Source: a virus
Length of the DNA: 27,708 nucleotides
IMG/VR virus record: IMGVR_UViG_3300024348_000193
Span: 1-27,708 of that record
Strand: one strand, 5' to 3'
Shown: positions 2,776 through 26,608 of the stretch, piece by piece
How positions within the stretch are numbered: position 1 is the first letter of the stretch
How the letters are laid out: the number at the start of each line of letters is the position of its first letter
The notes under the pieces: model-generated
Databases searched by the model: none
Seen by the model: the letters and a program-made list of their open reading frames with translations, nothing else
What the model was told of the DNA's origin: nothing
Position numbers and translations under genes: made by a program

Positions 2776-2810
2776 CGGCCCGTACCGCCCCATGGGCGGA
2801 GAGTACCATT

Positions 2811-2836: not shown

Positions 2837-3438
2837 GCTAAATCGTATGTGGGTAGTGTGTCTTTTGGTTGGATTCGTTTAACATTCTTTATTAAACTCG
2901 GGTTATATAAAACCATCATTGTGTCACCGTAACCAAAAGCGTTATCCACAATCTCGTAATCAACACCCAAACCAACCAGGAACGTTCTCCATGCAAATGA
3001 CTTGGGGCCTTTAAGGTAATTATGGTTTATTAATATGTTATTTACCAAATATAACGGTATACCATCATTGTGTATTCTGTAATTGGTTAAATTAAGTATA
3101 TCCTGTGCTGTTTTTTTGGGGAAGTTTTGGTTAAGGAATTGCATTAAAGATTCTATATCGATCTTCTTATCATTTATATCCACACCCTTTTGAACCGAAA
3201 CCAAATACATCTTCCTATTGCCCTTGGCATATTTTTTTGCAACATCATAATATGTTGTTAGGTATAAACCAGAACCATATTGTTGTCTGTCGGTTTTTTG
3301 TTGTATATCGTATTTGATTTCATCTAAGTCACCGCCATGAAAGAAATTCATTAAACTACTATCATCAGGTATCTCTATCATCTCTTCGGAGATCCCCATC
3401 ATTGTCTTCATTTTCGATATTTGTTCATTGAACAACAT
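2827..3438 (-). CDS. Tagged ADP-ribosyltransferase-like protein, putative injected effector
   Basis: A 203-residue protein. The N-terminus is the tag (MLFNEQISKMKTMMGISEE), with ISE at the predicted prohead-protease cut. The rest resembles H-Y-type ADP-ribosyltransferases: H34 in FFHGG, then YGSGLYLTT with Y59 at the second position, then a helix with AKKYA, and a C-terminal strand GDTMMVLYNP (about 170-180) where these enzymes place the third catalytic residue (E, Q or other). D replaces the usual E there, so activity is uncertain. The family moves ADP-ribose from NAD+ to proteins or nucleic acids. T4 Alt is a packaged, injected enzyme of this kind. It is 3 nt downstream of the GNAT/Nudix gene, so the two are probably one operon. 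Confidence 0.65.
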   Translation of the reverse strand: MLFNEQISKMKTMMGISEEMIEIPDDSSLMNFFHGGDLDEIKYDIQQKTDRQQYGSGLYLTTYYDVAKKYAKGNRKMYLVSVQKGVDINDKKIDIESLMQFLNQNFPKKTAQDILNLTNYRIHNDGIPLYLVNNILINHNYLKGPKSFAWRTFLVGLGVDYEIVDNAFGYGDTMMVLYNPSLIKNVKRIQPKDTLPTYDLAKK

Positions 3439-3441
3439 GTA

Positions 3442-7569: not shown

Positions 7570-7570
7570 T

Positions 7571-7972
7571 ATGAAAGATACTAGAGTTATTTTTAGAGCT
7601 AATGGTGGGTCCTGGAGACTAACCATGAACGGATCATCATACAGAAGAATATCTGGTAATGAGTCCTTCGAATGTACGGGATCAAACTCTGGTGGGGTTG
7701 ATGTCGTTGGTGAATTCTACAACGATAGAGTCGTATTACAGATTGAAGCGAGTAACCCTTGGATCGGATCGCCATGGGCTGCAATTGGTCAGGCTATCGA
7801 TGATATGGGTGGTTGGTCTAACGGTAGAACAGAGTTATCTGAAGGCGAATACCACATATTCTCAACAACGTTTTATACTGACGATGATGAATATGTTTTT
7901 AATACAAGAGTTATTAGATTAATGGACACAGATACAAAGAATTTTGAAATTTATCCTGATTGGAATCAGTAA
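7571..7972 (+). CDS. Unknown beta-rich protein
   Basis: A 133-residue protein, predominantly beta by composition (many G, S, T, V; NGGSWRLTMNGSSYRRISG), with no recognised family. The ATG at 7571 is preferred to an in-frame start at 7538: it begins 1 nt after the stop at 7569, whereas the upstream start would overlap the previous gene by 32 nt. It sits between two tagged genes but carries no tag. It may be a small virion or tail protein; this is only context. Confidence 0.65.
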   Translation: MKDTRVIFRANGGSWRLTMNGSSYRRISGNESFECTGSNSGGVDVVGEFYNDRVVLQIEASNPWIGSPWAAIGQAIDDMGGWSNGRTELSEGEYHIFSTTFYTDDDEYVFNTRVIRLMDTDTKNFEIYPDWNQ

Positions 7973-7991
7973 ACTTTAAGTTATAAAAGAA

Positions 7992-8450
7992 ATGAAAAAA
8001 GAAGTTTTAAAAGAAGAGATAACCCAGATTAGAAAAATGATGGGCCTTAAAGAGGGTATAGAATATTCCCCCGAAAAAATAGATCAGTTTATAGCTGAGG
8101 CCGACAAAACTGTTAATATGAGTAAAGCTGTCATACAAAAGTATGGTGGTATGATTATGAATTTAACAATGAATGATGTTTTAGATGACATTAATGGTGC
8201 TAAGGTTAGTTTGGATAAATTAAAAAGCTCAAAAAAACACATCGAGGGTCAATTCAATAAGTTCTATGATATTGTTGAAATGTACGATTATATGGATTTA
8301 CCAGATAACGTCCAGAAATTGAGTGACCTTAATGATTTATTAGATAAAGCGGTTATGCCATTGGGTGAGCTTGAAGATGTCTTTGATGCGTTAATTGATG
8401 CAGCTGAGCGAGTTGAACGATACGATATAAAAAGTTTTTTAAATAATTAA
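7992..8450 (+). CDS. Tagged helical protein, putative cargo
   Basis: A 152-residue, mostly helical protein. It opens with MKKEV and the tag LKEEITQIRKMMGLKE, both ends of which read LKE, matching (L/I)xE. The remainder has long amphipathic helices (for example residues 60-90 and 105-140) and no recognised domain. It is followed 5 nt later by an appendage protein gene, so cargo and structural genes share a transcript, consistent with late expression. Confidence 0.75.
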   Translation: MKKEVLKEEITQIRKMMGLKEGIEYSPEKIDQFIAEADKTVNMSKAVIQKYGGMIMNLTMNDVLDDINGAKVSLDKLKSSKKHIEGQFNKFYDIVEMYDYMDLPDNVQKLSDLNDLLDKAVMPLGELEDVFDALIDAAERVERYDIKSFLNN

Positions 8451-8455
8451 ATGAG

Positions 8456-9328
8456 ATGAGTAAAGACGTAAGAATTAAATTAAGTGGTGAAACCGCAATT
8501 GACGGTGCCAAATTATTGGGTAACGTTGCTTTGGTTACGGGTGACACCGTATCATATAATGAAGGATCTTGGGTTGGTGGTGTTGATGATTCCGATGGTT
8601 ATGTTATTATCGGTGATACTGATACCTCTGGTTTAATCGGTAGGACTACTGGTGGCGGTACTGGTGTTGTTACTGAAATGGTTCCAACATTTTGGAAAGC
8701 TAACGGGCTAACCAACGAAGACCTTATCGAATTGGTTAATAGGATACCTGGTTCCCCTGGTAATATCTCATCTAGTACTGAAGCACGAAATTGGTTAACC
8801 ACGCAAGACAGATTCATTATTTCAAATGATTACAGCGATGGTGATGGTGGTGGTGGTAATTACACGTTAGGTGATTATATGTTATCAACACAGTATTCAC
8901 CAGCACCCTTAGATGGGTTTATTTCATTCCCAGCACACCCAGTTGTTGGTGGGCCAGGTGGACAATCCGTAACAAACCCAAATTTAGTTGGTACTAATGA
9001 CGGTGAATATGAATACCAATTATATATCAATTCTAGAGATAGCTTGGGTAATGATTCGTCTGTAAAATTAGACCAATTAATAGGTAATTCAGGTACTTTA
9101 ACTTTAACACAAGGTTCTGATTCCGTAACATATACTTTCACTAATCGTGCATTCCAAACTGGTTACCCAGATCAGGTTGGTCAGGAACCCGTTTACTTCT
9201 ACGATAGTAAATTCGTTGTTAATGGTGAGTCTCAATCAGCCCCACTAGGTGCTGTTAGTGTTTTAACACCTTCACTTGATCATTTTAACACGGTAGACCC
9301 TATAACAATTACAGTAACGATTTCATAA
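8456..9328 (+). CDS. Phage appendage protein, paralogue of the next gene
   Basis: A 290-residue protein. The first 120 residues are strongly similar to those of the gene at 9342: EGSWVGGVD, GYVIIGDTDTSGLIGR, GGGTGVVTE...PTFW, LVNRIPGSPGN and ARNWLTTQ. The same design, more diverged, opens the gene at 27254. The C-terminal 165 residues are beta-rich with many G, S, N and T, as in tail-fibre or head-decoration tips. I read the N-terminus as a shared virion-docking module and the C-terminus as a variable module. The start at 8456 is used because the ATG at 8451 meets a stop after one codon. Confidence 0.7.
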   Translation: MSKDVRIKLSGETAIDGAKLLGNVALVTGDTVSYNEGSWVGGVDDSDGYVIIGDTDTSGLIGRTTGGGTGVVTEMVPTFWKANGLTNEDLIELVNRIPGSPGNISSSTEARNWLTTQDRFIISNDYSDGDGGGGNYTLGDYMLSTQYSPAPLDGFISFPAHPVVGGPGGQSVTNPNLVGTNDGEYEYQLYINSRDSLGNDSSVKLDQLIGNSGTLTLTQGSDSVTYTFTNRAFQTGYPDQVGQEPVYFYDSKFVVNGESQSAPLGAVSVLTPSLDHFNTVDPITITVTIS

Positions 9329-9341
9329 AAAAGATTATAAA

Positions 9342-11615
9342 ATGAAAAAAGATGTTAGATTAAAAATAGGTACCGAATCAACTGTTGAGGGTGGTACGGT
9401 AAGTGGTAATATTGTTGTTGCCACAGGTGACACAATAAATTACCTTGAGGGTAGCTGGGTAGCTGGTGTTGACGAATCAACTGGATATGTTATTATTGGT
9501 GATACAAATACTTCTGGTTTAATTGGTAGAGCAACTGGGAGTGGTACTGGCGTTGTAACAGAAACAACCCCAACGTTCTGGAGATCGACTGATCTGACGG
9601 ATAATAGTTTTATTAATTTAATTAATAGGTTACCAAACTCACCAGGTAATTTTACCACATTAAGTGATGCAAGGGATTGGTTAACTTCCCAAGGTTACTG
9701 GAGTAGCTCAAATCCGAATACCGATTTTGTTTCAGGTATTCAAACCTATTCCGTTCTTTATAATACGGAAGATGAAACTTCACAGTGGGCCTTTGCTACA
9801 CTTAATTATACTAACAACACATTAACGTTAAAACCTCTTGGTTTTTCATCTAATGAATGGGTTCGTCAAGATAATTATCCATTGAATGAATCAGGTTATA
9901 TGTGCTTATTTAGTAGTAATGATACTGGTGAATACAAAATATTATTTCTAGATGCTGCGAATAATATTGTTCAGACTATAACTACTCCTGGTAATATTAA
10001 TTATGATGTACACGAAGGTAAAGTTATGACTGTAAGATATAGCGGTGTGGTTTGGTATTTTGACGGGCTAAATGTTTATCAATATACATACGATGACACC
10101 AATCTAGATTATACTGAAGTTATATACGATTCAGATTCAGCTTCATCTAACGGTACATTCATGTTTAGGGTTTTTTATCTTGATGGTAGTGCGGTTATTA
10201 AAAAGTTACACGGTGGAACCGATGTAACTATCATGGAGTATTCTAATTTAGATGATATTTACGAGGTTAGACTTTATGATCAAGCTGACTATTATGTAAT
10301 ATTTAAAAAATCAGTAGGTGGTGTGTATCAAGATTTTAAAATTAGAAAAATATCTGATAATACCCTATTACATTCAGTTGATTTAACTGCGTTCTTTAAA
10401 GTAGATGAGTCAGTGATGAATTATACTGCTATCAATTTTAACAATTGTAGCATTAACAAATTTGCTATGGTTATTCATAACTGGGATGACGCAGATGTAG
10501 ACTATAGGATTTATACTTATAATGGTACAACTGATATACTTAGTTCTGCATCACATGTAAAGGGCGCTAATTATCCTAATTTTAATATAATTGCAAATTC
10601 CAATGATAGATTAAGTACTGTAGGTAGAGACTCTGTTCTTTTCTCTTTTTCTACTAATTCTTCATGGAACGGTTCAATGGATCTATATGCATATTTTGAT
10701 ATTATCTATCAAATGTCATGGCATACTAGCTTAACCACATATGTATTTGCAAACGGTGGTGTTGGAAATGAAAAAGGTATTTTATTCAATGATAACGGTT
10801 TAACAAATAACTATTATGCGATTTGTACTACTAATAACACAGATCTTCAAGTATTATCTATTACCGAAGCTGATGGGCTTGATATTACAACAGTAGGTTT
10901 ACTAACAGATTTTTATAATCCGTACATGCGCAGTTTTGGAAATAAATCATGCCTTATAGCTTATACCGCAAGTGATGGTACTGGAATGGCGCTTAAATAT
11001 TTTGGAAATACTGCTACTGTAGCAGACTCATTGACTATTACTGGGACTACACAGTATAACGTACAAACATACGTTGGATGGGATATTTTTGCCGCAAAAT
11101 ATGAAAACGTCTTATATCAGATTAACACAACCACCGATGAAATTGTTACTGTCGGTAACTGGTATGGTAGTAATGATTACACAGCTACTTTTTACTACGA
11201 AGTGTTGCCATCTGAAAGAAAGGGGGATACTTCGATTTTATTATTTGACGCATCAACATACGATGCCATTGTTTTAAAACCCGCAGCATATGTTACTGGT
11301 ACTTTACCACAGAACAGCGATTTTAATGTTAGAATGGGTAAAAATCATTTCATGTATGTCTTTGAAGACCCGAATACTGGAAATATCCAAATCAATTTAT
11401 ATGATTTTAATTTGACATTAGTTAATTCTATACTAACTGATAAAACTAATTTTAGTTTTAATACAAGAGGTGTCAAAGATAGGTTTCTTGCTAGACATAA
11501 TGATGGTAATGGTACTTACACGTGGTTTATGATTACAGCTACATTTGATGATTCAACCATGACACCAAATTCTAATACCTATAGAGTCGAAAATGATTGG
11601 GTTTACTGGAACTAA
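9342..11615 (+). CDS. Large appendage protein with shared N-terminal module, candidate receptor-binding protein
   Basis: A 757-residue protein. Residues 1-120 match the preceding gene's N-terminal module almost motif for motif. The remaining 640 residues are dense in short beta strands rich in Y, T, N and D (such as VWYFDGLNVYQYTYDD and YDQADYYVIFKK), recurring irregularly as in beta-propeller or beta-helix proteins. I cannot assign a fold. Together with the shared docking module this suggests a tail-fibre or receptor-binding protein. It is last in the 6670-11615 operon, 13 nt after its paralogue, and is followed by a hairpin shared with the convergent gene. No catalytic motif is seen. Confidence 0.7.
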   Translation: MKKDVRLKIGTESTVEGGTVSGNIVVATGDTINYLEGSWVAGVDESTGYVIIGDTNTSGLIGRATGSGTGVVTETTPTFWRSTDLTDNSFINLINRLPNSPGNFTTLSDARDWLTSQGYWSSSNPNTDFVSGIQTYSVLYNTEDETSQWAFATLNYTNNTLTLKPLGFSSNEWVRQDNYPLNESGYMCLFSSNDTGEYKILFLDAANNIVQTITTPGNINYDVHEGKVMTVRYSGVVWYFDGLNVYQYTYDDTNLDYTEVIYDSDSASSNGTFMFRVFYLDGSAVIKKLHGGTDVTIMEYSNLDDIYEVRLYDQADYYVIFKKSVGGVYQDFKIRKISDNTLLHSVDLTAFFKVDESVMNYTAINFNNCSINKFAMVIHNWDDADVDYRIYTYNGTTDILSSASHVKGANYPNFNIIANSNDRLSTVGRDSVLFSFSTNSSWNGSMDLYAYFDIIYQMSWHTSLTTYVFANGGVGNEKGILFNDNGLTNNYYAICTTNNTDLQVLSITEADGLDITTVGLLTDFYNPYMRSFGNKSCLIAYTASDGTGMALKYFGNTATVADSLTITGTTQYNVQTYVGWDIFAAKYENVLYQINTTTDEIVTVGNWYGSNDYTATFYYEVLPSERKGDTSILLFDASTYDAIVLKPAAYVTGTLPQNSDFNVRMGKNHFMYVFEDPNTGNIQINLYDFNLTLVNSILTDKTNFSFNTRGVKDRFLARHNDGNGTYTWFMITATFDDSTMTPNSNTYRVENDWVYWN

Positions 11616-11636: not shown

Positions 11637-11667
11637 AAAAGGGGTTTTTAAACCCCTTTTTCTTTTT
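11637..11667. terminator. Bidirectional terminator between convergent genes
   Basis: AAAAGGGGTTT (11637-11647) pairs with AAACCCCTTTT (11650-11660). T-rich sequence follows on the plus strand and an A-run precedes, so it can act in both directions. It includes the stop codon of the minus-strand gene ending at 11648. Confidence 0.8.
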
Positions 11668-12184
11668 CTATTAATAATTCCCCTAGAACCTCTATCTTAC
11701 CGACTAGCTCTTGAAAAGCTATTTGTTCTATATCCATATCCCCTTTTGTCGCTGAATAAAGTTGTTCTAACAATTCTTTATATTCTTTTTTAACATCTTC
11801 AAAATCTAATTCACCTTTAGAAGCTTTTTCATAATATGGTAACTTAACCTCAAAATGGTGATAGGTTAACATCGCAACCCCACCTTTTTCTTTGGCGTTA
11901 TCAACTATCTTTTCGGCACCACCCATTCTTTTTTCAGAAAAATCTTCCAAAGATTCTTCTTTATCATCCGCTTCACCCAACTCTATTGGATTGGCTTTAC
12001 CGTGTGTTGTTCTTATTGGTGATGGTGCGTTTCCGATAGGTGCGGCAGGGCCACTCCTATTAATACCAGTCTCCCATTTTTTCTTTGCGGCACCTGTTGG
12101 GTTTTGTGACGTTCCTGAAGATTCACCATCTTCATTTAAACCCATAACCTCTTTGATTCTAGATATTTGTTCGTTCAATTCCAT
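11648..12184 (-). CDS. Tagged phage protein, putative cargo
   Basis: A 178-residue protein opening with the tag MELNEQISRIKEVMGLNED. A low-complexity linker (about 20-65, rich in G, P, S and T) follows. The C-terminal 100 residues (AKEKGGVAMLTYHHFEVKLPYYEKA, then FQELVGKIEVLGELL) look like a conserved domain I have seen in hypothetical proteins of T4-like phages; its function is unknown. The ATG overlaps the stop of the upstream gene as TAATG (shared base 12184), so the two tagged genes are probably translationally coupled. Confidence 0.75.
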   Translation of the reverse strand: MELNEQISRIKEVMGLNEDGESSGTSQNPTGAAKKKWETGINRSGPAAPIGNAPSPIRTTHGKANPIELGEADDKEESLEDFSEKRMGGAEKIVDNAKEKGGVAMLTYHHFEVKLPYYEKASKGELDFEDVKKEYKELLEQLYSATKGDMDIEQIAFQELVGKIEVLGELLIEKEKGV

Positions 12185-13464
12185 TACATAATATAATTAG
12201 TTAATTCATATTTTCCAGAAGGCATTCTATATAATGAGATTTGTAACATTTTTTTAAGCGGTTTACCGTCTTTTAATATTTCAACGTGATATTGAACCGT
12301 TTTCTCATATGCAACGTGTTGCGGTGTAATACTTTCCCAGTTAACATCGAAACCTTTATGTTTAGCGTATTCTTCAGCTGATTGTAGGGCTTCAGATTGT
12401 GTATTATAAAAATTTTCTTGTTTGAATCCAGGTCTACCCTCATACACTTTACCATCTTTACCAGCTCTCATTTTCATAAATGATTCCACCTCTTCTCTAA
12501 TTCCTAAATCGTCTAATGCATCAGTCGTATCTTCAAAACCAGGTATGTCTTTAGATGTCTCGGTATCATCATTACCAAACAAATCATCGATTAATGATTG
12601 AGCCATGGATTTTAAATCAATTTTATTATTACCACGACCCATATTCCAAACACCCCCTAAAGCGTTTTCAAGGTAATCAACTCTATTATCAGAACCAACC
12701 ATTGCATCTTCCATGGCAAGATCCCAACCACCGATCGCTGACTCCTCGTCAACTCCTTCTCTAATACCTAAACCATCTAATGCGTCAGTTGTACCCTCAA
12801 AGCCAGGCATATCTTTGGGTGTTTCTTGTTCATCATCAATTTTAGCTATAAGTTCTTTAATATATTCATCAGCCTTCATCTTCGTAACAACACCAGAAAC
12901 AAACTCGTTGGCTTTAGCGTTTTCTTCCCCGCCCAATTCATCTGCAAGAACCATAATCATACCCATCTGTTCGAAAGTCATCCTGTTGGATGGTCTATTC
13001 AAAATAGCGGTTGATTTACTAATATTCTCATCTATTTCTTCTTCAGCCTCACAATGCTCACCACATTCAGAACATATGTCATGCATAACAATTGGTGCGC
13101 CACAACAATCTGAAAGGCCGTCACCATCGCTGTCACTAGGGTCAAACGCCTCATTTTTCTCAAATGTTTCTGGATCTCTATCTTGTTTATTAGCGGTTGC
13201 GTAATAAACTTCTTCACCCTTTTTATCACCGTATTGATCTTTGAATTTATTAAGAACTTCAGTGTTCTCATCAGCTTCCTCTTCTCTCATTGAACCAACA
13301 ATATCTGAAGGGGATATTTCTTCGATAGCGTTTTTACCATAATTAATTTCATAATCATCGTCATCAGGTGACATATTCGTTTCTTTACCGCTCGGGCTGA
13401 TGTGTTTAACGCCCATCATTTCCTGTATCCTAGTAACTTCTTCGTTTAAACTTTTCTTTTTCAT
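12184..13464 (-). CDS. Tagged modular acidic protein with internal duplication, putative cargo
   Basis: A 426-residue acidic protein. The N-terminus is MKKK then the tag LNEEVTRIQEMMGV; here the second LxE after the G is absent (VKHIS). Residues 109-139 hold DSDGDGLSDCCGAP...CSECGEHC, a Cys/His cluster likely to bind zinc. A segment at 211-238 (PKDMPGFEGTTDALDGLGIRE) is repeated at 299-326 with few changes. Residues 340-426 form a separate beta-rich C-terminal domain. No enzymatic motif is seen. It leads the two-gene minus-strand unit with the tagged gene at 11648 and has TATTTATT 19 nt upstream. Confidence 0.75.
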   Translation of the reverse strand: MKKKSLNEEVTRIQEMMGVKHISPSGKETNMSPDDDDYEINYGKNAIEEISPSDIVGSMREEEADENTEVLNKFKDQYGDKKGEEVYYATANKQDRDPETFEKNEAFDPSDSDGDGLSDCCGAPIVMHDICSECGEHCEAEEEIDENISKSTAILNRPSNRMTFEQMGMIMVLADELGGEENAKANEFVSGVVTKMKADEYIKELIAKIDDEQETPKDMPGFEGTTDALDGLGIREGVDEESAIGGWDLAMEDAMVGSDNRVDYLENALGGVWNMGRGNNKIDLKSMAQSLIDDLFGNDDTETSKDIPGFEDTTDALDDLGIREEVESFMKMRAGKDGKVYEGRPGFKQENFYNTQSEALQSAEEYAKHKGFDVNWESITPQHVAYEKTVQYHVEILKDGKPLKKMLQISLYRMPSGKYELTNYIM

Positions 13465-14211: not shown

Positions 14212-17200
14212 ATGGCAAATTTAAATTTAAGAAAAAACCTTAACCAAGCATTAAGTTTCACACAGTTAGATGGTAACTTTGAGTACTTGGAAAGTGTTGA
14301 CGTGTCGTTGGCGTCTGTTGTTACCGCAGCTGACTCATCGTTGTCAACTAGAGTTTCTGCTGAAGAAGTAGCTAGAGCAAGTGCCGACACTTCTATCGAA
14401 GCTGTTATTTCAGCTAACGAATTAGCTAATGATTCAGCTGACGCTTCATTAACCGCAAGAATCTCTGCTGAAGAGGTTGCAAGAGCTTCTGCCGATACTT
14501 CTATCGTAGCTGTTATCTCTGCAAACGCATCTGCTGACGATTCATTAGAATTAAGATTATCTACTGAAGAAGTAGCTCGTGCATCTGCCGACACATCTAT
14601 CGTTAACTACGTTGATGGTGAAATGTCTGCTGAGGAATCTGCAAGAATTTCTGGTGACGCATCTTTAACTACAAGAGTTTCAACTGAAGAGTCTGTAAGA
14701 GAAAGCGCTGATGATTCATTAGAGGTTAAAATCTCTACTGATATTTCAGCCGCAAATTCTTCTAACGCTTCTGCTGATGCTTCATTAACAGCTAGAATTT
14801 CTGCTGAGGAGATTGCTAGAGCTGATGCTGATTCATCTATCGTAGATGCCTATGTTTCTGCTGACGCTTCTTTAGAATTAGCTTATGTTTCTGCTGACAC
14901 ATCTATCGTTAACTACGTTGACGCTGAAATGTCTACAGAAGAATCTGTAAGAGAAAGCGCTGATACTTCATTAACTACAAGAGTATCTAACGAAGAAGTT
15001 GCTAGAGCTTCTGCTGACACTTCAATCGTTGCATTGATCTCAGGTAATGCTTCTGCTGATGATTCATTAGAATTAAGATTATCTACCGAGGAAACTGCTA
15101 GAGCATCTGCTGACACATCTATCGTAACTTACTTAGATGCTGAAATGTCTACAGAAGAATCTGTAAGAGCTTCTGCTGATGCATCAATAATGGTTGTTGT
15201 TGATAACAATAAATCAGTACTTGACGTTGCTGATGCTTCATTGACAACAAGATTGTCTAACGAAGAGGTTGCAAGAGCTTCTGCTGATACGTCAATCGTT
15301 AACTATGTTGACGCTGAAATCTCTGCTGAGGAATCCGCAAGAATTTCTGGTGATGCATCTTTAACTACAAGAGTTTCAACTGAGGAATCTGTAAGATCTT
15401 CTGCTGACGCATCTTTAGCAACTAAAATTTCAACTGATATTTCAGCTGCAAATTCTTCTAATGCTTCTGCTGATGCTTCATTAACAGCTAGAATTTCTGC
15501 TGAGGAATCTGTAAGATTATCTACAGATGATGAATTATTTCAATACACTACTGATCAGGTTTATGCTGAGACATTAAACAGAGAGTCTGCTGATACTTCA
15601 TTAACAACTAGATTGTCTAACGAAGAGTCTGTAAGAACAAGTGCTGATGCATCTATCGTGACAGCTTATACAGCTGCTGATTCAACTGAAGCTTCTATTA
15701 GATTATCTGCTGATACTTCTATCGTAGCGTTGATTTCTGGTAATGCTTCTGCTGATGATTCATTAGAGGCTAGATTATCCGCTGAGGAAGTTGCTCGTGC
15801 ATCTGCTGATACTTCAGTTGTTGCTTATGTTGACGCTGAAATGTCTACAGAAGAATCTGCAAGAATTTCTGGTGATGCTTCATTGACAACAAGATTGTCT
15901 AACGAAGAGTCTGTAAGAGAAAGTGCTGATTTATCTATGTATACTGCTTTAGATAACGATATTGCAGCTGAAGAGTCTGGAAGAATTTCTGGTGATGCTT
16001 CATTGACAACAAGATTGTCTAACGAAGAGTCTGTAAGAGAATCTGCTGATGATTCATTGGAGGTTAAAATCTCTACTGATATTTCTGCTGCTAATTCTTC
16101 TAATGCTTCAGCTGATGCCTCATTAGCTACTAGAATTTCAACTGAAGAGTCTGTAAGAACGAGTGCTGACGCATCATTAGCTACCGCTATTGGTGATGAA
16201 GAACAAGCTAGAATTACTGCCGTTTCAAACGAAGCTTCTTTAAGAGTGTCTGCTGACGATTCAATCGTTGCATTGATCTCAGGTAACGCTTCTGCTGATG
16301 ATTCATTAGAAACTAGATTGTCTAACGAAGAGTCTAACAGAGCTTCTGCTGATACTTCAGTTGTTGCTTATTTAGACGCTGAAATGTCTACAGAAGAATC
16401 TGTAAGAGCTGCTGCTGACGCATCTTTAGAGGTTAGATTGTCTAACGAAGAAGCTACTAGAGAATCTGGGGATAATGATTTATATCAGTACATCGATACT
16501 GAGATGTCTACAGAAGAATCTGTAAGAGCAAGCGCTGATACGTCAATCGTTAACTATGTTGATGCTGAAATGTCTACAGAAGAATCTGTAAGAGCTGCTG
16601 CTGACGCATCATTAACTACAAGAGTATCTAACGAGGAGTCTGTAAGAACTTCTGCTGATGCTTCTATCGTAGCATTGATCTCAGGTAATGAATCCGCAAA
16701 TGATTCTGCTGACGCTTCTTTGACAACTAGATTGTCTAACGAAGAGTCTGTAAGAGCAAGCGCTGATACTTCAATTGTTAACTTTATTAACAACGAGGTT
16801 TCAATTTTAGAAGATGCTGACGCTTCTATCGTAGATGCTTATGTTTCTGCTGACGCTTCTTTAGAATTAGCTTACACATCTGCTGATACTTCATTAACAA
16901 CTAGATTGTCTAACGAAGAGTCTGTAAGAACTTCTGCTGATGCTTCTATCGTAGCATTGATCTCAGGTAATGAATCTGCAAATGATTCAGCTGATACTTC
17001 ATTAACTACAAGAATTTCTGCTGAGGAATCTGTAAGAGCAAGCGCTGATACATCATTAGCTAACTTGATCGCAGCTAACAACCAGTTAGATATCAATGGT
17101 CAAGTATTAGACTTAGCTGACGAAACTTTAACTATCGAAGGCACTAGCCAAGAAGTTATGGTTGACACATCTTTCGATGGTAATGGTAATGTTACAATTA

Positions 17201-17652
17201 CTGTTGGTCTTGAGGATACTATCTTCGTAGACACTAACGGTGAGCACACAGGTAACGTTGTTCCAGAAGTTTACAGAGATACAATGAAGACAGTATACAA
17301 CGGTGGTAACTTCGGTTCAGCGACTGGTACTGTAACTGTAACAGGTGAATTAAATAATATCGTTGTTATCGATGCTGCTATCGTAACTGCTGGTGTTATT
17401 GATTTAACTGGTGTTGTTGCTGGTACTTTAACTCACTTCGTGGTTAAGGACTTAGCTGGTAATAGCACTGGTTCTTCTACTGTAACACTTAAATTCGCTG
17501 CCGTATATGGTAACCCTTACGGTAATGTTGATTTAGTATTACAAGAAGGTGAGGCTGCTCAAATCTACATGATCGGTACTGGTCAAGGTTTAGTATTGTC
17601 TCTAAACAAAGCTGTTACTTATGTAACTGAATATCCATCAGATTTGAAATAA
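14212..17652 (+). CDS. Giant repetitive phage fibre protein
   Basis: A 1146-residue protein. The first 30 residues (NLRKNLNQALSFTQLDGNFEYLE) resemble the N-terminal attachment region of phage tail fibres. Residues about 35-950 are an almost unbroken array of 14-18-residue units of the form SADxSLTTRLSNEESVRx, rich in S, A, D and E, predicted to form a long trimeric coiled stalk. Residues about 955-1146 are a beta-rich tip (NGQVLDLADETLTIEG, then VVIDAAIVTAGVIDL). By type it is a long tail or head fibre; a homotrimer is inferred. The nucleotide sequence is also repetitive. A strong terminator follows. It may share a transcript with the J-domain gene. Confidence 0.85.
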   Translation: MANLNLRKNLNQALSFTQLDGNFEYLESVDVSLASVVTAADSSLSTRVSAEEVARASADTSIEAVISANELANDSADASLTARISAEEVARASADTSIVAVISANASADDSLELRLSTEEVARASADTSIVNYVDGEMSAEESARISGDASLTTRVSTEESVRESADDSLEVKISTDISAANSSNASADASLTARISAEEIARADADSSIVDAYVSADASLELAYVSADTSIVNYVDAEMSTEESVRESADTSLTTRVSNEEVARASADTSIVALISGNASADDSLELRLSTEETARASADTSIVTYLDAEMSTEESVRASADASIMVVVDNNKSVLDVADASLTTRLSNEEVARASADTSIVNYVDAEISAEESARISGDASLTTRVSTEESVRSSADASLATKISTDISAANSSNASADASLTARISAEESVRLSTDDELFQYTTDQVYAETLNRESADTSLTTRLSNEESVRTSADASIVTAYTAADSTEASIRLSADTSIVALISGNASADDSLEARLSAEEVARASADTSVVAYVDAEMSTEESARISGDASLTTRLSNEESVRESADLSMYTALDNDIAAEESGRISGDASLTTRLSNEESVRESADDSLEVKISTDISAANSSNASADASLATRISTEESVRTSADASLATAIGDEEQARITAVSNEASLRVSADDSIVALISGNASADDSLETRLSNEESNRASADTSVVAYLDAEMSTEESVRAAADASLEVRLSNEEATRESGDNDLYQYIDTEMSTEESVRASADTSIVNYVDAEMSTEESVRAAADASLTTRVSNEESVRTSADASIVALISGNESANDSADASLTTRLSNEESVRASADTSIVNFINNEVSILEDADASIVDAYVSADASLELAYTSADTSLTTRLSNEESVRTSADASIVALISGNESANDSADTSLTTRISAEESVRASADTSLANLIAANNQLDINGQVLDLADETLTIEGTSQEVMVDTSFDGNGNVTITVGLEDTIFVDTNGEHTGNVVPEVYRDTMKTVYNGGNFGSATGTVTVTGELNNIVVIDAAIVTAGVIDLTGVVAGTLTHFVVKDLAGNSTGSSTVTLKFAAVYGNPYGNVDLVLQEGEAAQIYMIGTGQGLVLSLNKAVTYVTEYPSDLK
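14290..17060 (+). repeat. Tandem coding repeats, unit about 54 nt, inside the fibre gene
   Basis: Most units encode 18 residues around SADxS and SNEESVR. Longer near-duplicates are embedded; for example 16636-16694 matches 16918-16976. The array is prone to recombination and length change. The bias also leaves spurious stop-free frames on the opposite strand (14175-14594, 14913-15116, 16554-16793, 16872-17096). Confidence 0.85.
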
Positions 17653-18970: not shown

Positions 18971-19558
18971 TTATTGGTATTTAATTAGTGTATCAGTAAT
19001 TCTTTCTTTATCTAACTCAAAATGTATTTCTTTATGACAATTAGAGCAAACTAAAATACATTTATCCAGTTCGATTTTTATTTTATCCCAGGATAATACT
19101 TTATATGATGATAAGTGAAAATCCTTTTCCTTTGGGTCATTGTGGTGAAATTCTAACGCACGTATACATTTACTATAACCACATTTAAAACATTCACCCC
19201 CTTTATATTCAACAGCCCTCTCTTTAATTTTTTGTCGGTACGTTTTAACATGATTATAATTACGTTCACGTAATTCCTCATCAGATAATTTAATTCTTTT
19301 ATTATCGGTGTATCTTATAACAGTACTTCTACTAATATTAAACCGCTTAACAACCTCATCTATTGTGTGATTAAGATAATAATCGTTAATTTGGTTAACT
19401 AGCTCATTATCAATAATCGGTTTATTATTACCAATACCGTTTCTAGTACAGTGATAGGAAATTGTCGCTTTTGAACAACCTAATAAGTCTTTAATCTCAT
19501 CATACGTTTTATTCTCACCCCTTAATCTAAGGATCTCTTTTTTTAAACTAACAGTCAT
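18971..19558 (-). CDS. HNH endonuclease with two helix-turn-helix motifs
   Basis: A 195-residue protein. Residues 18-40 and 66-88 look like helix-turn-helix motifs (YDEIKDLLGCSKATISYHC and IDEVVKRFNISRSTVIRY). The C-terminal half is a zinc-binding HNH domain: C123-x2-C126, LEFHHNDP with H138-H139, and CSNCHKEIH with C171-x2-C174 and H175, H179. This type is a common free-standing phage endonuclease. It sits at the downstream edge of the tRNA array, 46 nt from the tRNA-Ile gene, a position typical of mobile endonucleases. TATTTATA lies 19 nt upstream of the ATG. Confidence 0.85.
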   Translation of the reverse strand: MTVSLKKEILRLRGENKTYDEIKDLLGCSKATISYHCTRNGIGNNKPIIDNELVNQINDYYLNHTIDEVVKRFNISRSTVIRYTDNKRIKLSDEELRERNYNHVKTYRQKIKERAVEYKGGECFKCGYSKCIRALEFHHNDPKEKDFHLSSYKVLSWDKIKIELDKCILVCSNCHKEIHFELDKERITDTLIKYQ

Positions 19559-19577
19559 ATTTGTATCATTATATGAT

Positions 19578-19585
19578 TATAAATA
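19578..19585 (-). promoter_or_regulatory. Candidate phage promoter element TATTTATA
   Basis: Minus-strand TATTTATA ending 19 nt before the HNH start at 19558, between that gene and the tRNA-Ile gene. Confidence 0.45.
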
Positions 19586-19604
19586 TGTTCTAAATTCAAA
19601 AAAG

Positions 19605-19676
19605 TTGGCCCACCCAGATTTGAACTGGGAATACATCCTTATCAGGGATGCGTGATAACCGTTTCACTATGGGCCA
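19605..19676 (-). tRNA. tRNA-Ile (GAU)
   Basis: Minus strand. Acceptor TGGCCCA pairs fully with TGGGCCA, discriminator A. Anticodon stem CATCC/GGATG encloses loop CTGATAA, anticodon GAT. T-loop TTCAAAT. No encoded CCA. Last gene of the array in transcription order. Confidence 0.9.
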
Positions 19677-19768
19677 ATATGCAAAATAACCAAATGAGCT
19701 ACAGGACGTTAAACTAAATTTTGCACGATAAACAATATGTGTTTATTGTCGCAAAAACAGGTTTATTG
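19677..19768 (-). pseudogene. Spacer with tRNA 5'-half remnant
   Basis: At 19687-19707 the minus strand reads like a tRNA 5' end and D-arm (TCCTGTAGCTCATTTGGTTA), but no anticodon or T-arm follows. GCAAAAT (19681-19687) and ATTTTGC (19718-19724) form an inverted repeat around it. It looks like a deleted tRNA gene. Confidence 0.45.
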
Positions 19769-19840
19769 TACCCCCAAAGCGATTCGAACGCCTATTTCTT
19801 GATTCGTAATCAAGTGTTCTATCCGTTGAACTATGAAGGT
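19769..19840 (-). tRNA. tRNA-Arg (ACG)
   Basis: Minus strand. Acceptor ACCTTCA/TGGGGGT (two G-U pairs), discriminator A. Anticodon stem CTTGA/TCAAG with loop TTACGAA, anticodon ACG, presumably read as ICG. T-loop TTCGAAT. Confidence 0.88.
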
Positions 19841-19959
19841 AAATAATAGGTCATTGTTACAACATCTTTCACCTACTTTCTTGGCAAGGTCTCCATCATG
19901 GGTTCCGTTAACCGATGTTTATTTTATAACCCCTTACGGAACAAGTGGGGTAACCTATT
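19841..19959 (-). other. Unassigned structured spacer in the tRNA array
   Basis: 119 nt without a tRNA or ORF. GTTCCGT (19902-19908) pairs with ACGGAAC (19936-19942), and ACCCC (19929-19933) with GGGGT (19947-19951); the two pairings interleave. It could be a degenerate gene or a small RNA. Confidence 0.3.
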
Positions 19960-20037
19960 TGGGGTGACTGGTGGGGATCGAACCCACGACCTCTTGAATC
20001 ACAATCAAGCACTCTAACCAACTGAGCTACAGAAACC
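19960..20037 (-). tRNA. tRNA-His (GUG), acceptor stem with two mismatches
   Basis: Minus strand. Anticodon stem CTTGA/TCAAG with loop TTGTGAT, anticodon GTG. The His-specific extra pair G-1:C73 is present and CCA is encoded (19960-19962). Acceptor positions 3 and 4 face C and T, so two of seven pairs are mismatched (GTTTCTG against CAGTCAC). T-arm GTGGG/CCCAC is intact. It may be decaying or need unusual processing. Confidence 0.8.
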
Positions 20038-20043
20038 GTGTTG

Positions 20044-20130
20044 CGGAAGATAGAGGATTCGAACCTCTGGGTCGGTTTCCCGACCAACTCCTTAGCAGGG
20101 AGCCACAATCGACCTCTCTGTCAATCTTCC
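20044..20130 (-). tRNA. tRNA-Ser (GCU)
   Basis: Minus strand. Class II with a long variable arm (TTGGTCGGGAAACCGACC). Acceptor GGAAGAT/ATCTTCC, discriminator G. Loop CTGCTAA, anticodon GCT. Confidence 0.92.
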
Positions 20131-20134
20131 TTGG

Positions 20135-20206
20135 TAGCGAGAGGGAGTTTCGAAATCCCGACCTTTCGGATATGAGCCGAACGCTCTTCCTCTGAGCTAT
20201 CTCGCC
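20135..20206 (-). tRNA. tRNA-Met (CAU), elongator or Ile2 type
   Basis: Minus strand. Acceptor GGCGAGA/TCTCGCT with a G1-U72 wobble, discriminator A, CCA encoded (20132-20134). Loop CTCATAT, anticodon CAT. It lacks the three G-C pairs of initiator tRNA. It could be elongator Met or lysidine-modified Ile(CAU); sequence alone does not decide. Confidence 0.85.
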
Positions 20207-20211
20207 ATTGG

Positions 20212-20282
20212 TTGTCCCGCCAGGACTCGAACCTGGACGACCCGAGTCAAAGTCGGGCGAACTGCCATTATTCTACAGGACA
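20212..20282 (-). tRNA. tRNA-Gln (UUG)
   Basis: Minus strand. Acceptor TGTCCTG/CGGGACA with the U1-A72 pair usual for tRNA-Gln, discriminator A. Stem CCCGA/TCGGG, loop CTTTGAC, anticodon TTG. Confidence 0.92.
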
Positions 20283-20288
20283 TTGTTG

Positions 20289-20370
20289 TGCCAGCAGGTG
20301 GACTCGAACCACCGAACCCGTAAGGGAGCTGATTTACAGTCAGCTGCAATTGCCGCTATGCGATACTGGC
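20289..20370 (-). tRNA. tRNA-Tyr (GUA)
   Basis: Minus strand. Class II with a long variable arm. Acceptor GCCAGTA/TGCTGGC, discriminator A. Stem GCTGA/TCAGC, loop CTGTAAA, anticodon GTA. Confidence 0.92.
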
Positions 20371-20511
20371 AAGTTAGGGAAGAGGAAGATGGTTCAGTGG
20401 ACATCCTCTTTTACGATCGGCATTACTTGGGTGAATACCTGCAAACTCCGATCACACCAGTCAGTATTCACTCTCGAACTATTGATGTGATCATTCCCCG
20501 ATCAACCTTTG
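20371..20511 (-). other. Structured spacer with interleaved inverted repeats
   Basis: 141 nt between tRNA-Tyr and tRNA-Val with no tRNA. GTGAATAC (20431-20438) pairs perfectly with GTATTCAC (20464-20471), and GATCACA (20450-20456) with TGTGATC (20486-20492). The two helices interleave, as in a pseudoknot. GATCGG (20415-20420) can pair with CCGATC at 20448-20453 or 20498-20503. AAGAGG...CCTCTT near 20380-20410 adds a fourth hairpin. Candidate structured RNA. Confidence 0.4.
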
Positions 20512-20584
20512 TACACCCTATAGGACTCGAACCTATGACATCTGCCATGTAAGGGCAGCGCTCTACCAACTGAGCTAAAGGTGC
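20512..20584 (-). tRNA. tRNA-Val (UAC)
   Basis: Minus strand. Acceptor GCACCTT/AGGGTGT, discriminator A. Stem CTGCC/GGCAG, loop CTTACAT, anticodon TAC. T-loop TTCGAGT. Confidence 0.92.
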
Positions 20585-20688
20585 ATGTGTCCCTTCGTAG
20601 GTACTTGCCGTTTCTTAAGTCGACACTTTCCCCGTTGCGTGTTTTATTTAAGTGTACTTCCCTACTGGGATTTGAAGCCAACACATTG
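20585..20688 (-). pseudogene. Spacer with tRNA 3'-half remnant
   Basis: At 20655-20679 the minus strand resembles a tRNA T-arm and 3' acceptor (GGCTTCAAATCCCAGTAGGG), but no matching 5' half, anticodon or full T-stem is present. The rest of the spacer shows nothing recognisable. Confidence 0.35.
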
Positions 20689-20769
20689 TACCCAAAGAGA
20701 GATTCGAACTCTCACGCCTTTCAGCCACGGTTTCTAAGACCGTTATGTCTACCATTCCATCACTCGGGC
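20689..20769 (-). tRNA. tRNA-Leu (UAG)
   Basis: Minus strand. Class II. Acceptor GCCCGAG/TTTGGGT, discriminator A. Stem ACGGT/ACCGT, loop CTTAGAA, anticodon TAG. T-stem GAGAG/CTCTC. Confidence 0.9.
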
Positions 20770-20776
20770 ATTTTAG

Positions 20777-20847
20777 CACGGATACAAGGATTCGAACCCT
20801 GACCAAGAGATTTGGAGTCACTTATGCTACCGTTACACCATATCCGT
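20777..20847 (-). tRNA. tRNA-Trp (CCA)
   Basis: Minus strand. Acceptor ACGGATA/TATCCGT, discriminator G as usual for Trp. Loop CTCCAAA, anticodon CCA. The anticodon stem AGTGA/TCTCT has one T-T mismatch. Confidence 0.87.
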
Positions 20848-20856
20848 GTTTATTTG

Positions 20857-20926
20857 AGTATAAGGTTGGAATCGAACCAACTCCGCAAGTTTTGCAGACC
20901 TGCTGGCCTCCACGACCAACTTATAC
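20857..20926 (-). tRNA. tRNA-Cys (GCA)
   Basis: Minus strand. Acceptor GTATAAG/CTTATAC with U73, the discriminator typical of tRNA-Cys. Loop CTGCAAA, anticodon GCA. Confidence 0.92.
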
Positions 20927-20931
20927 GTTTG

Positions 20932-21006
20932 TGTCCCCGACAGGACTCGAACCTGTGACTCCCTCATTAAAAGTGAGGTGCTCTAAACCAACTGAGCTAC
21001 GAAGAC
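20932..21006 (-). tRNA. tRNA-Lys (UUU)
   Basis: Minus strand. Acceptor GTCTTCG/CGGGGAC, discriminator A. Stem CCTCA/TGAGG, loop CTTTTAA, anticodon TTT. Confidence 0.92.
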
Positions 21007-21111
21007 GTTTTTAGCTCAAAACTAACTAAATTATGGCTCAATTTTTAACCTAAATGAGCTATAAACCCGATATCAATGACCTAAAAGCCCAATATCGGTC
21101 AATTTGAGTTG
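21007..21111 (-). other. AT-rich spacer with D-arm-like fragment and hairpin
   Basis: At 21046-21061 the minus strand reads TAGCTCATTTAGGTTA, close to the D-arm fragment in 19687-19707. CCGATAT (21067-21073) pairs with ATATCGG (21092-21098). No complete tRNA can be folded. Confidence 0.35.
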
Positions 21112-21186
21112 TAGCGTAGACAGGACTCGAACCTGCACTATGTCCTCATCCCAAATGAGGCGGCCTACCAATTGGCCAACTACGCT
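21112..21186 (-). tRNA. tRNA-Pro (UGG)
   Basis: Minus strand. Acceptor AGCGTAG/CTACGCT, discriminator A. Stem CCTCA/TGAGG, loop TTTGGGA, anticodon TGG with G37 as in bacterial tRNA-Pro. Confidence 0.9.
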
Positions 21187-21224
21187 ATTTTAAAATTACC
21201 AATACGTCAAAGAACTATATTCTG

Positions 21225-21300
21225 TCTAGATGGCAAGATTCGAACTTGCGTGCTCCTACGTCCAAGGTAGGTGAGATAGACCTGACTCCTCTACATCTAG
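21225..21300 (-). tRNA. tRNA-Pro-like (UGG), second copy, isotype uncertain
   Basis: Minus strand. Acceptor CTAGATG/CATCTAG, discriminator A; T-stem GCAAG/CTTGC. Stem CCTAC/GTAGG, loop CTTGGAC, so the anticodon reads TGG. A37 instead of G37 and an 11-nt D-loop are unusual for Pro. First gene of the array in transcription order. Confidence 0.78.
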
Positions 21301-24203: not shown

Positions 24204-24905
24204 ATGTTAACATTTGATACATTACCCGATAAAGTAAAAGATAACTATAAAAGAAACATAACTTCCAGTGTTGCGTTCGTTAAAGCGGATGGTACTGTGA
24301 GACATATCGCTTTTAGAAGAAATTTAAATTCGTATATCGCTAGTGATAAACCTAAGAGTGAAAAACAGGTTAACGTACAAGCGAATAACAACCTATTATT
24401 AGTTGTTGATACTAACGCATATATTAAGGCGCTAAAGGGATCAAACGGTGATAAAGCAGCTGCTGCTAAGAAGGCTTGGAGAAATATTAAGTTAGGTGAA
24501 GTTTTAGCTTTCATGGCCTCTGGCGAGGTTTTTGATATGCGAGAAGAAAATAATATACTTGAAAGATATGGTGAAGAAATTTATTCTCAGTTAACACCTA
24601 ACATGAAAGCAGCATTAATGAGTGATATCAATCAGTCGTCAGACGTGGATAAATATGTGATCGAACCAATGGAAGGTTCCGAAGAAGAGGTTAATGATAA
24701 CCTAAAAGAATCGGATATGTATAATGAGACCACGGATAATGACTACACTGATGATATTTATAATCCAGAAATAGATTACGAGGAGATGATAAGTAAGCAT
24801 GAGGATGAAGAAGACGGCAAACACGCTATGAAGACGTATGACGATTTTGAATCTGGGGCTATATATGAAACAATCACTCGTATGAAAAAATTAATCAACC
24901 ACTAA
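24204..24905 (+). CDS. Phage protein with C-terminal tag, putative cargo
   Basis: A 233-residue protein. Residues 1-120 (DKVKDNYKRNITSSVAFVKA, VRHIAFRRNL, then YIKALKG and GEVLAFMASGEVFDMREENN) look like a conserved phage domain whose function I do not know; the start may be a small beta-barrel. Residues 150-218 are acidic and low in complexity. The last 14 residues, IYETITRMKKLINH, match the tag in C-terminal form, preceded by IYE, an (L/I)xE site. It is followed after 11 nt by a small basic protein gene, so the two are co-transcribed. Confidence 0.75.
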   Translation: MLTFDTLPDKVKDNYKRNITSSVAFVKADGTVRHIAFRRNLNSYIASDKPKSEKQVNVQANNNLLLVVDTNAYIKALKGSNGDKAAAAKKAWRNIKLGEVLAFMASGEVFDMREENNILERYGEEIYSQLTPNMKAALMSDINQSSDVDKYVIEPMEGSEEEVNDNLKESDMYNETTDNDYTDDIYNPEIDYEEMISKHEDEEDGKHAMKTYDDFESGAIYETITRMKKLINH

Positions 24906-24916: not shown

Positions 24917-25069
24917 ATGGCAGCAAAAAAAAGCACGGGAACTTCAAATGTTAAAATGCACAAAAGCAGAGGTAAGGTTACCAGAAAGGGTATCATAGCC
25001 AAAACCAAACAAAGCAAAAACAAGAGAAGTAAAAACTACAAAAAACCGTATAGAGGACAAGGTAGATAA
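24917..25069 (+). CDS. Small highly basic protein (50 residues)
   Basis: A 50-residue protein with about 19 Lys/Arg and almost no acid (MAAKKSTGTSNVKMHKSRGK, ending KPYRGQGR). The composition suggests nucleic-acid binding, for example DNA condensation in the head. I recall similar small basic proteins in other large phages but know no function. It follows the tagged gene by 11 nt and precedes a bidirectional terminator. Confidence 0.7.
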   Translation: MAAKKSTGTSNVKMHKSRGKVTRKGIIAKTKQSKNKRSKNYKKPYRGQGR

Positions 25070-25178
25070 CTTTAGATGAAACAAAAATTAGTCTGGTATG
25101 ATATTTTTTATGATTAAGTCGTAATAATACCAAAACCAATATATATTAAATAGTAAAGTTTTAAACTCTATATATTAA

Positions 25179-25205
25179 AAAAGCCACCCATAAGGTGGCT
25201 TTTAT
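25179..25205. terminator. Bidirectional terminator between convergent genes
   Basis: AAAAGCCACC (25179-25188) pairs with GGTGGCTTTT (25194-25203) across a 5-nt loop. T-rich sequence follows on the plus strand and an A-run precedes, so it serves both the small basic gene and the helicase gene ending at 25208. Confidence 0.88.
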
Positions 25206-25207
25206 TT

Positions 25208-26608
25208 TTAAAATTCATCGTATATCATAAAGTATAGTTCTTCCTTTGGTCTAGTAACAGCGACATAATGTATGTTGCGGCCTTCTTCATCGATTTCACC
25301 ATCTTCAGTTATAAAAGAAAATTCACTAAAATCGTACATATAACCACCTTCTTTTGCTAGTAATTGTGGGTCGGCAGAGTTAACGACAACACATCTAGGA
25401 AATTCTCTACCCTTACTTTTATGGATTGAGGTGACAAACACATCTAGATGTTGGTTATTTTCGATGAATCCAACCAATTCCTGGACATTTAAATAGTAGG
25501 GCAATACTTCATTAAGTTTTTTCTTTAAAGGCTCTGAGATCGAAGATTTCTTGATATTCTCTAAGTCTGTTTTTGTTATGTAGTTAAAATACCTCATCGG
25601 TATTTGTTTTTTTAAACCCTGCTTCTCTATCTCTTTAATTACATTATTTGTTCTAACCAAAACCGTTAGTGGTTTTCCGTCTTGCATCATAGCATATAGT
25701 GTCTTTTTGGTTATGAACTTATTATCAACAAAACCCTCATTTTCAGATTCTGGTATGGCCCTTAACGAACTAAACTTATTAGCGTTCTCAACAATTTTTT
25801 TATGTGATCTAAAATTTTTAGTTAAAGTTAACTCGATAACGGTTTTTTTATTCTTTAGCAAACCCTCAATTTTTTCACAATTAGCCCCAGAAAACCCATA
25901 TATTGATTGGTTTTTGTCACCGATAAGATAATATTGTTTCGCATTTATTGCCGACAATATTTTCATTTGTAAAGTGGACGTATCTTGATATTCATCAATA
26001 AAGATATAATCATACATACCGTTGAAGAATTGGTAATGTTGTGGATCTTTAGTCAACTTTTCGGTGTCAATCAACATATCAGAAAAATCACGACTATTAG
26101 TTTCCTTTAAAAACGCTACGTAATGATCGTAGAAATTAGGTCTAGGTGACTTAAGCCCATCGTGAAACTGTAATTTATATGCAGAGAAAGTTGCTGCGAT
26201 ATTAGCCCCCTCCTCATAAAATCTTTCAATTGTTTTATAATATTCTTCACGTATTTTTTGCGGGTCTTTAAATGACGGTTTTTTCTTTTCACGATACCAA
26301 TTAATGAAATCATAAAAAGTTACTATTTGTTTAAATTTACCTAGCTTACCTAAAACGGAGGTTGTGAAGCTATGTATTGTTGTAATTTTAACATCCCTAT
26401 CAATTCTACTTTTTAATTCATTAACAGCATCATTTGTAAATGAGAAAAAGATTATTTTACTCGGATCAACACCATTATCCAAAAGATGATTTAACCTACC
26501 AACGGTAGAGTGTGTTTTACCACTACCAGCGGTGGCTGACAATATTATGGACTCTGGCCCACTGAACTCAATAAATTTTAACTGTTCTTCTGTATATCTA
26601 CTTTTCAT
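25208..26608 (-). CDS. UvrD/Rep-like superfamily 1 DNA helicase
   Basis: A 466-residue SF1 helicase with all core motifs in order: Walker A ATAGSGKT (25-32), motif Ia FFSFTNDAVNEL, motif II DEYQD (205-209), motif III GDKNQSIYGFSGA (230-242), motif IV NFRS (265-268), motif V TSIHKSKGREF and motif VI YVAVTRPKEEL near the end. It is shorter than UvrD or Rep (about 700 residues), so the 1B and 2B subdomains are reduced, as usual in phages. It would unwind DNA in phage replication or recombination. The gene is driven by a host-type promoter at 26613-26644, with only a few nt of leader. Confidence 0.93.
   Translation of the reverse strand: MKSRYTEEQLKFIEFSGPESIILSATAGSGKTHSTVGRLNHLLDNGVDPSKIIFFSFTNDAVNELKSRIDRDVKITTIHSFTTSVLGKLGKFKQIVTFYDFINWYREKKKPSFKDPQKIREEYYKTIERFYEEGANIAATFSAYKLQFHDGLKSPRPNFYDHYVAFLKETNSRDFSDMLIDTEKLTKDPQHYQFFNGMYDYIFIDEYQDTSTLQMKILSAINAKQYYLIGDKNQSIYGFSGANCEKIEGLLKNKKTVIELTLTKNFRSHKKIVENANKFSSLRAIPESENEGFVDNKFITKKTLYAMMQDGKPLTVLVRTNNVIKEIEKQGLKKQIPMRYFNYITKTDLENIKKSSISEPLKKKLNEVLPYYLNVQELVGFIENNQHLDVFVTSIHKSKGREFPRCVVVNSADPQLLAKEGGYMYDFSEFSFITEDGEIDEEGRNIHYVAVTRPKEELYFMIYDEF

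Follow-up and report, generated by a model that had tools for sequence, protein, structure and literature searches.

The stretch of DNA analyzed here (the window) is a viral contig of 27,708 bases recorded in IMG/VR, available without flanking genome and without the gp20-gp23 genes, in which nine copies of a short peptide tag were found: six N-terminal, one internal (at 5022, within the protein encoded by 3442-5370) and two C-terminal. The plus-strand ORF at 24204-24905 encodes a 233 aa C-tagged protein, whose body (approximately residues 20-144) is small, conserved and PHROG 2267-like (PHROG_2267, E = 9e-6), and is followed by an acidic linker and the tag. The linker module DYEEMISKHEDEEDGKHAMKTYDDFESGA (24774-24860, plus strand) runs up to a putative IYE cleavage site, whereas the tag itself, IYETITRMKKLINH (24861-24902, plus strand), consists of the IxE site and then a scaffold-like helix. 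The AlphaFold model of this protein had a mean pLDDT of 35 and was left out of the analysis. The other C-tagged protein is a 642 aa tagged polyprotein encoded on the minus strand (3442-5370), which is composed of a GNAT-like unit, the internal tag, a second unit ("unit 2"), a DUF5872-like part, a NUDIX domain and a C-terminal tag, LNETLLRMKSIINR (3445-3486, minus strand). Its GNAT-like unit (5026-5370, minus strand) has no N-terminal tag of its own, resembles domains of DarB-like/PLxRFG phage proteins and is separated from unit 2 by the internal tag LNEEITKMKNTMGLGE (4975-5022, minus strand), which carries a putative GLGE↓A site. The NUDIX domain (3568-3885, minus strand; Pfam PF00293, E = 2.7e-18) was the clear match in a domain search of the polyprotein, in which the GNAT and DUF5872 matches were weak.

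The N-tagged proteins include an ADP-ribosyltransferase-like one (2827-3438, minus strand; tag FNEQISKMKTMMGISE at 3385-3432), whose matches to DUF3990 (E = 4e-6) and ART-PolyVal (E = 6e-5) do not reach Pfam's curated cut-offs. Three more are encoded on the plus strand, at 1812-2198 (tag LNEEISKIRKMMGLNE at 1827-1874), 6670-7569 (tag LNEEIAKMRKMMGLNE at 6685-6732) and 7992-8450 (tag LKEEITQIRKMMGLKE at 8007-8054), and two on the minus strand, at 11648-12184 (tag LNEQISRIKEVMGLNE at 12131-12178) and 12184-13464 (tag LNEEVTRIQEMMGVKH at 13402-13449). A gene similar to that at 11648-12184 is present in contig G004, on a record that also bears gp21-gp22-gp23. The product of 12184-13464 is an acidic protein with a recurrent ESFMKMRAGxxGKVxE module, and, in the form ESFMKMRAGAxGKVxE, this module is seen in otherwise different acidic tagged proteins (besides the window gene, at G008 6708-8240, G025 16814-17563 and G022 211037-212008).

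Elsewhere in the window, 14 predicted tRNA genes are clustered at 19604-21300 on the minus strand, and several small ORFs listed in this interval are tRNA sequence and not genes. The 1146-aa protein encoded by 14212-17652 is made up of many degenerate EESVRASADTSIVxxI-type repeats and is probably a fibrous tail protein. The adjoining genes 8456-9328 and 9342-11615 are alike in their N-terminal regions and divergent in the remainder, which suggests that a gene for a structural protein or an adhesin was duplicated.

C-terminal copies of the tag in the window and in related contigs

That the same tag serves the C-terminus as well, in a distinct consensus, had been proposed in a first-pass annotation of the window, and the two C-termini do read as claimed there: E-x-(I/L)-x-R-M-K is kept in both, G-L-x-E is absent from both, and an (L/I)xE triplet (IYE and LNE, respectively) opens each tag ahead of the helix. 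Both C-tagged ORFs are real genes, the 24204-24905 protein being ~48% identical to proteins of other contigs and the NUDIX part of the 3442-5370 protein being 72-77% identical to its relatives. For a wider comparison, 33 related IMG/VR contigs, the window and Flavobacterium phage immuto were taken together (2258 non-redundant proteins from called ORFs); the host is probably a member of Bacteroidetes, as judged solely from the kinship with immuto.

A matrix of nine positions (LNEEIxRMK), trained on N-terminal tags only, gave 17 C-terminal matches at a score threshold of at least 11, whereas 1.2 would be expected from the internal rate and 1.15 from shuffled C-termini. The first-pass annotation had named a lack of further C-terminal copies as a finding that would speak against it, and, as many of them exist in the relatives, this objection fails. 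An independent scan of 2.9 million IMG/VR viral contigs with E-x-I-x-R-M-K-x-(L/I/V/M/F)-I-N, a consensus derived from both of the window's C-terminal tags, placed 15 of the 21 matches in ORFs of at least 50 codons at C-termini, five at N-termini (one of them stop-broken) and one internally; as several of the records are near copies, the distinct tails number about seven, on five or more body families. The C-terminal form is indeed a distinct one: past R-M-K-x it continues with I/L, then I/F/L, often N, and the stop (14 of the 15 C-terminal consensus matches end exactly one residue past the N), whereas the N-terminal form continues as M-M-G-(L/I)-x-E, the M-M after K-x being usual in the N-terminal tags and nearly absent from the C-terminal ones.

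The motif is admittedly short, and charged helices are common enough at C-termini to have prevailed in a loose comparison, so it might be argued that the C-terminal copies are chance matches or generic amphipathic helices. This seems highly improbable, given the 17 matches against 1.2 expected, the 15 of 21 placed at C-termini by the independent scan and an identical 8-mer common to tags and scaffolds (see below). A helix-only matrix omitting the LxE positions yielded 11 C-terminal matches at a score of at least 9 against 3.0-4.5 expected, and was dropped as a decisive test for being too short. C-terminal tagging is thus confirmed, and the bodies bearing the tag are diverse, with ADP-ribosyltransferase-like, NUDIX, GNAT-like and M23-peptidase-like ones among them.

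Another terminal element, M(K/G)K(I/V)(I/V)RLTESDLxRIVKRVIxE, recurs in the same contigs; it mostly has an IxE end and was seen at 16 N-termini (G017, G024, G005, G016, G003, G009, L032-L035) and two C-termini (among them, G024 12841-13269). This RLTESDL-type element may be a second loading tag.

Exchange of units and tags as joints

The first-pass annotation was right about the N- and C-terminal positions, and had missed the internal tags, which lie at the joints between the cargo units of polyproteins. Units of the 3442-5370 polyprotein are found separate or reordered in three related contigs (G008, G023 and L480). The GNAT-like unit, which in the window is followed by the internal tag, is 57% identical to a stand-alone 196-aa protein of G008 that has a C-terminal tag of its own, LNEAIINIKKWFGILN. 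The NUDIX domain, which is closed by the C-terminal tag in the window, has a homolog in G008 508-2724 (72% identical over 343 aa), behind which lie an internal tag and one more unit. G023 has the start of unit 2 in a gene of its own, with a counterpart of the internal tag at the N-terminus, and the order in L480 is an N-terminal tag, a different first unit (read as ADP-ribosyltransferase-like, with no database match), unit 2, NUDIX and a C-terminal tag. The parts of the 24204-24905 protein are exchanged as well: over a stretch of 43 residues, its linker and tag share 63% identity with the tail of an otherwise unrelated 211-aa protein (G013 16488-17123), a stretch similar to the linker is present in an N-tagged protein (G004 46688), and the body is ~48% identical to 183-aa proteins of L032-L034 that lack the C-terminal tag and have an N-terminal element, MGRILRLTESELTKMIQEMI, instead. 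Judging by these sequences, tagged units (GNAT, NUDIX and others) are shuffled among separate genes and polyproteins with the tags at the joints, and such an exchange of bodies and tag positions fits a loading tag that is indifferent to its position on the body.

The same joints could be taken to mean that the C-terminal copies are relics, i.e., non-functional stubs left where a polyprotein lost the unit behind an internal tag, and at least one C-terminal tag may have arisen by such a loss, as the G008 counterpart of the window's NUDIX tag has another unit behind it. Stubs, however, would be expected to decay, whereas C-terminal tags are kept on several unrelated body families across large divergence: in the M23-peptidase-like proteins of G017/G024 at 25% identity, in a 156-aa family (L485/L500/G023) at 30%, and in the 211-aa family and the proteins of the clade whose scaffolds end in LAGI (the LAGI clade, see below). 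As they also have a consensus of their own that ends one residue past I-N, we regard the relic explanation as unlikely for the C-terminal copies at large.

Likeness to the C-terminal helix of the scaffold

What the first-pass annotation had missed altogether is that the tag appears, by its sequence, to be a likeness of the helix in which the prohead scaffold of the same phage terminates. Where a contig includes head genes, a tag-like helix closes the product of the gene between the S77 protease (gp21) and gp23 (the position of the gp22 scaffold), as in VERMKDLINKIQ (G023), LERMLDMINKMK (G022) and FLRMKDLMSKLK (G017); for the window, which has no head genes, the nearest scaffold ends are those of G004, G023 and G022. 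The scaffold was identified from the order of the genes and from the homology of the two clades' scaffold groups (hhalign probability of 98.7%, E = 2e-16), and no named scaffold family was matched in PHROGs (two members searched) or Pfam (one). With the matrix trained on N-terminal tags only, the scaffold C-terminus ranks first among the 61, 188, 202, 32 and 31 C-termini of five records, and fourth among the 189 and 411 of two others, mostly behind C-tagged proteins. The tag of phage immuto (NC_055915), carried by two genes (25061-25456 and 111675-112139) with a putative cut after IITE, is a different one, LSEQFRRMQKLAGIITE; the immuto scaffold end, VSEQVSRWQKLAGIIK, is ranked first of 218 by the phage's own tags with a score of 49, the runner-up scoring 19.

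A scan of IMG/VR for the 8-mer RM[KQ]KLAGI, common to scaffolds and tags in one clade, resulted in at least 121 ORF matches, of which at least 103 were C-terminal, at least 17 N-terminal and at least one internal; gp23 lies directly downstream of at least 95 of the C-terminal ones, and the N-terminal tags (at least 17) sit on about 15 unrelated bodies. The same motif also ends proteins other than the scaffold, such as those of L248 and L250 (INESFTRMQKLAGIIK), L325 and L305; the few non-scaffold proteins among the C-terminal matches listed include two relatives ending in STSINESFTRMQKLAGIIK and a pair with a DGHHR motif that is read as ParB-like (a Pfam search of one DGHHR-motif protein gave no match). 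For the scaffold end of the other clade, NPQxxRMxD followed by two hydrophobic residues, all 120 of the 120 matches were C-terminal, and 119 had gp23 downstream. The tags of the MMG type were found in six records, all from the NPQ-scaffold clade and none from the LAGI one (four of the six records having been chosen for their tags), while among LAGI-type records only immuto has the tag and the scaffold together. These clade-matched tags and scaffold ends suggest that each clade's tag goes with that clade's scaffold.

By virtue of this match, a C-terminal tag shares the geometry of the scaffold itself, as the scaffold and the C-tagged proteins have a common arrangement of body, (L/I)xE (putatively LIE↓S in the scaffold), helix and stop. 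The further idea that C-terminal tags are nearer to the scaffold end than N-terminal ones was rejected (p = 0.40), and a template test over all C-termini at a loose BLOSUM threshold did not single out the scaffold, with charged helices winning, and was substituted by the trained matrix. The scaffold ends of T4 and S-PM2 gave no tag-like match, so the copy principle is demonstrated for a single branch, that of the window's clade and the immuto-like clade. The scaffold of Rhodothermus phage RM378 ends in LERIKRLAGL and that of Microcystis phage Mel-JY01 in VERMKKLAGIVK, and no tags were found in either of the two phages.

Two other head genes have ends worth recording here. The prohead protease has a tag-like end, DDRMKKLMGGLDKFLSK (G030 19469-20152, G032 2760-3443), and is in this respect reminiscent of the SPN3US protease, for whose propeptide a targeting role has been proposed. 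In G022, the gene in the place of the gp20 portal (178363-180240) ends in ISLNESITKTIQEIDELLKD, an LxE followed by a C-terminal helix, and might therefore also be processed.

Putative cleavage sites and the proposed loading of cargo into the prohead

Of the 34 related records, nine encode an S77 prohead protease (PF03420), and all five of those longer than 120 kb are among them. Within 14 residues past the core, 42 of the 52 N-proximal tags have an [LI]xE, as opposed to 14% of random windows, and in C-terminal tags an (L/I/V/M)xE directly precedes the helix (IYE, VYE, LDE, LFE, LSE, IQE, INE), all the other residues being variable. In the window's clade, all 106 of the 106 scaffold ends have an [LI]xE among the 14 residues that lead up to the helix (background of 55%, from windows further upstream), and 64 of the 97 C-terminal tails of the LAGI clade have one nearby (background of 43%). 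The earlier T4-like targeting model thus keeps its single tag at both ends, its site enrichment and its S77 protease in relatives, and the proposal that a capsid-targeting peptide is removed by the prohead protease, with the cut on its body side, seems well supported by sequence, albeit short of proven. Its weakest step is the cleavage of the C-terminal tags, as an (L/I)xE also opens the N-terminal tags and, taken alone, is thus no proof of a C-terminal cut. A small residue after the first (L/I)xE is weakly commoner in C-terminal tags (5/19 vs. 5/67, p = 0.04), and this preference was dropped as a proof of C-terminal cleavage on account of that p-value.

As the first (L/I)xE lies in the tag core at every tag position, it may be a binding feature and not a cut site, which, together with the weak signal at the residue after the E, would suit a helix that assembles with scaffold or capsid and is retained in the mature protein. 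Against such retention speak the second [LI]xE past 42 of the 52 N-terminal tags, the C-terminal triplet that keeps its L/I and E while its middle residue varies, the S77 protease encoded by relatives and the [LI]xE in all 106 scaffold ends of the window's clade, so a helix that is never removed appears rather improbable to us.

The best explanation overall, to which we would assign a probability of roughly 0.7, is that of a scaffold-helix loading tag by which cargo is docked, cut by the S77 protease and injected. Taking the tag positions, the tag-scaffold match, the protease gene of relatives, the site enrichment and the exchange of bodies and tag positions as given at the level of sequence, we infer the docking partner, the packaging, the cleavage and the injection as follows. 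The window would be part of the genome of a tailed phage of the T4 superfamily, and this phage would load its prohead with many proteins by means of a peptide copied from the C-terminal helix of its own scaffold (gp22 position) and placed at either terminus or between the units of a polyprotein. The helix would dock at the site taken by the scaffold C-terminus, whether on the inside of gp23 or in the scaffold core, and the cargo would in this way become part of the prohead as it is built. At (L/I)xE, the S77 protease (gp21) would then cut on the body side, i.e., past the helix where the tag is N-terminal (GLNE↓), ahead of it where the tag is C-terminal (IYE↓T, LNE↓T) and between units, and the freed body would remain in the head and be injected along with the DNA. 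With somewhat less confidence, we favor the fuller version of this scheme, in which a position-independent loading peptide, a copy of the scaffold helix that tracks the clades, builds polyproteins of injected enzymes that are cut in the prohead.

In T4, the N-terminal peptides of internal proteins, 10-19 residues long, have an affinity for the prohead core and are removed by gp21 with a cut after (L/I)xE, C-terminal processing being known for Alt and gp21 (PMC9026906). Like these T4 capsid-targeting sequences (IPI-IPIII, Alt), the tag is a short terminal peptide on unrelated proteins with an (L/I)xE end and an S77 protease in relatives, and the tagged set, like Alt, includes an ADP-ribosyltransferase-like protein. 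Unlike them, it occurs N-terminally, C-terminally and internally, is a likeness of the scaffold C-terminal helix, and shows no evident similarity to MKTYQEFIAE, with the T4 scaffold end giving no match either. The protease of SPN3US (gp245) has a C-terminal propeptide with a proposed targeting role (PMC7411985, PMC10052503); the C-terminal segments of Alt, gp21 and gp245 are removed by the prohead protease, as we suppose the window tags to be, yet those are single cases with no common tag, whereas one modular tag recurs on many bodies here. The 30 N-terminal residues of P1 DarB similarly suffice to load a reporter into the head, the same study having found in P1 neither a consensus for the N-termini of the Dar proteins nor a separate scaffold (PMC9024508). 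In engineered P22 scaffold-cargo fusions, too, the capsid-binding C-terminal part of the scaffold brings cargo into the shell, but these are man-made, employ the whole C-terminal domain, have no release by a phage protease and belong to an unrelated phage (PMC9962691). Phage polyvalent proteins are multidomain, with conflict-related enzyme domains deployed as infection starts (PMC5512222); the tagged proteins may resemble them, the NUDIX match being strong and the GNAT and ART-PolyVal matches weak, but here the units are set apart by putative loading tags with protease-type sites. Neither a natural targeting tag copying a scaffold C-terminus nor a single tag at N-terminal, C-terminal and internal positions was found reported in the open-access literature.

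While the sequence of the T4 targeting peptides is silent on what they imitate, the tag described here is recognizably a piece of the scaffold, which indicates a docking site and makes it testable by competition. The natural arrangement would parallel the engineered P22 nanocages, with two cargo-loading geometries and with release built in. The tag could also serve as a simple rule for predicting the proteins that are packaged in the head and injected in thousands of uncultured phages, at whichever position of the protein it happens to be placed.
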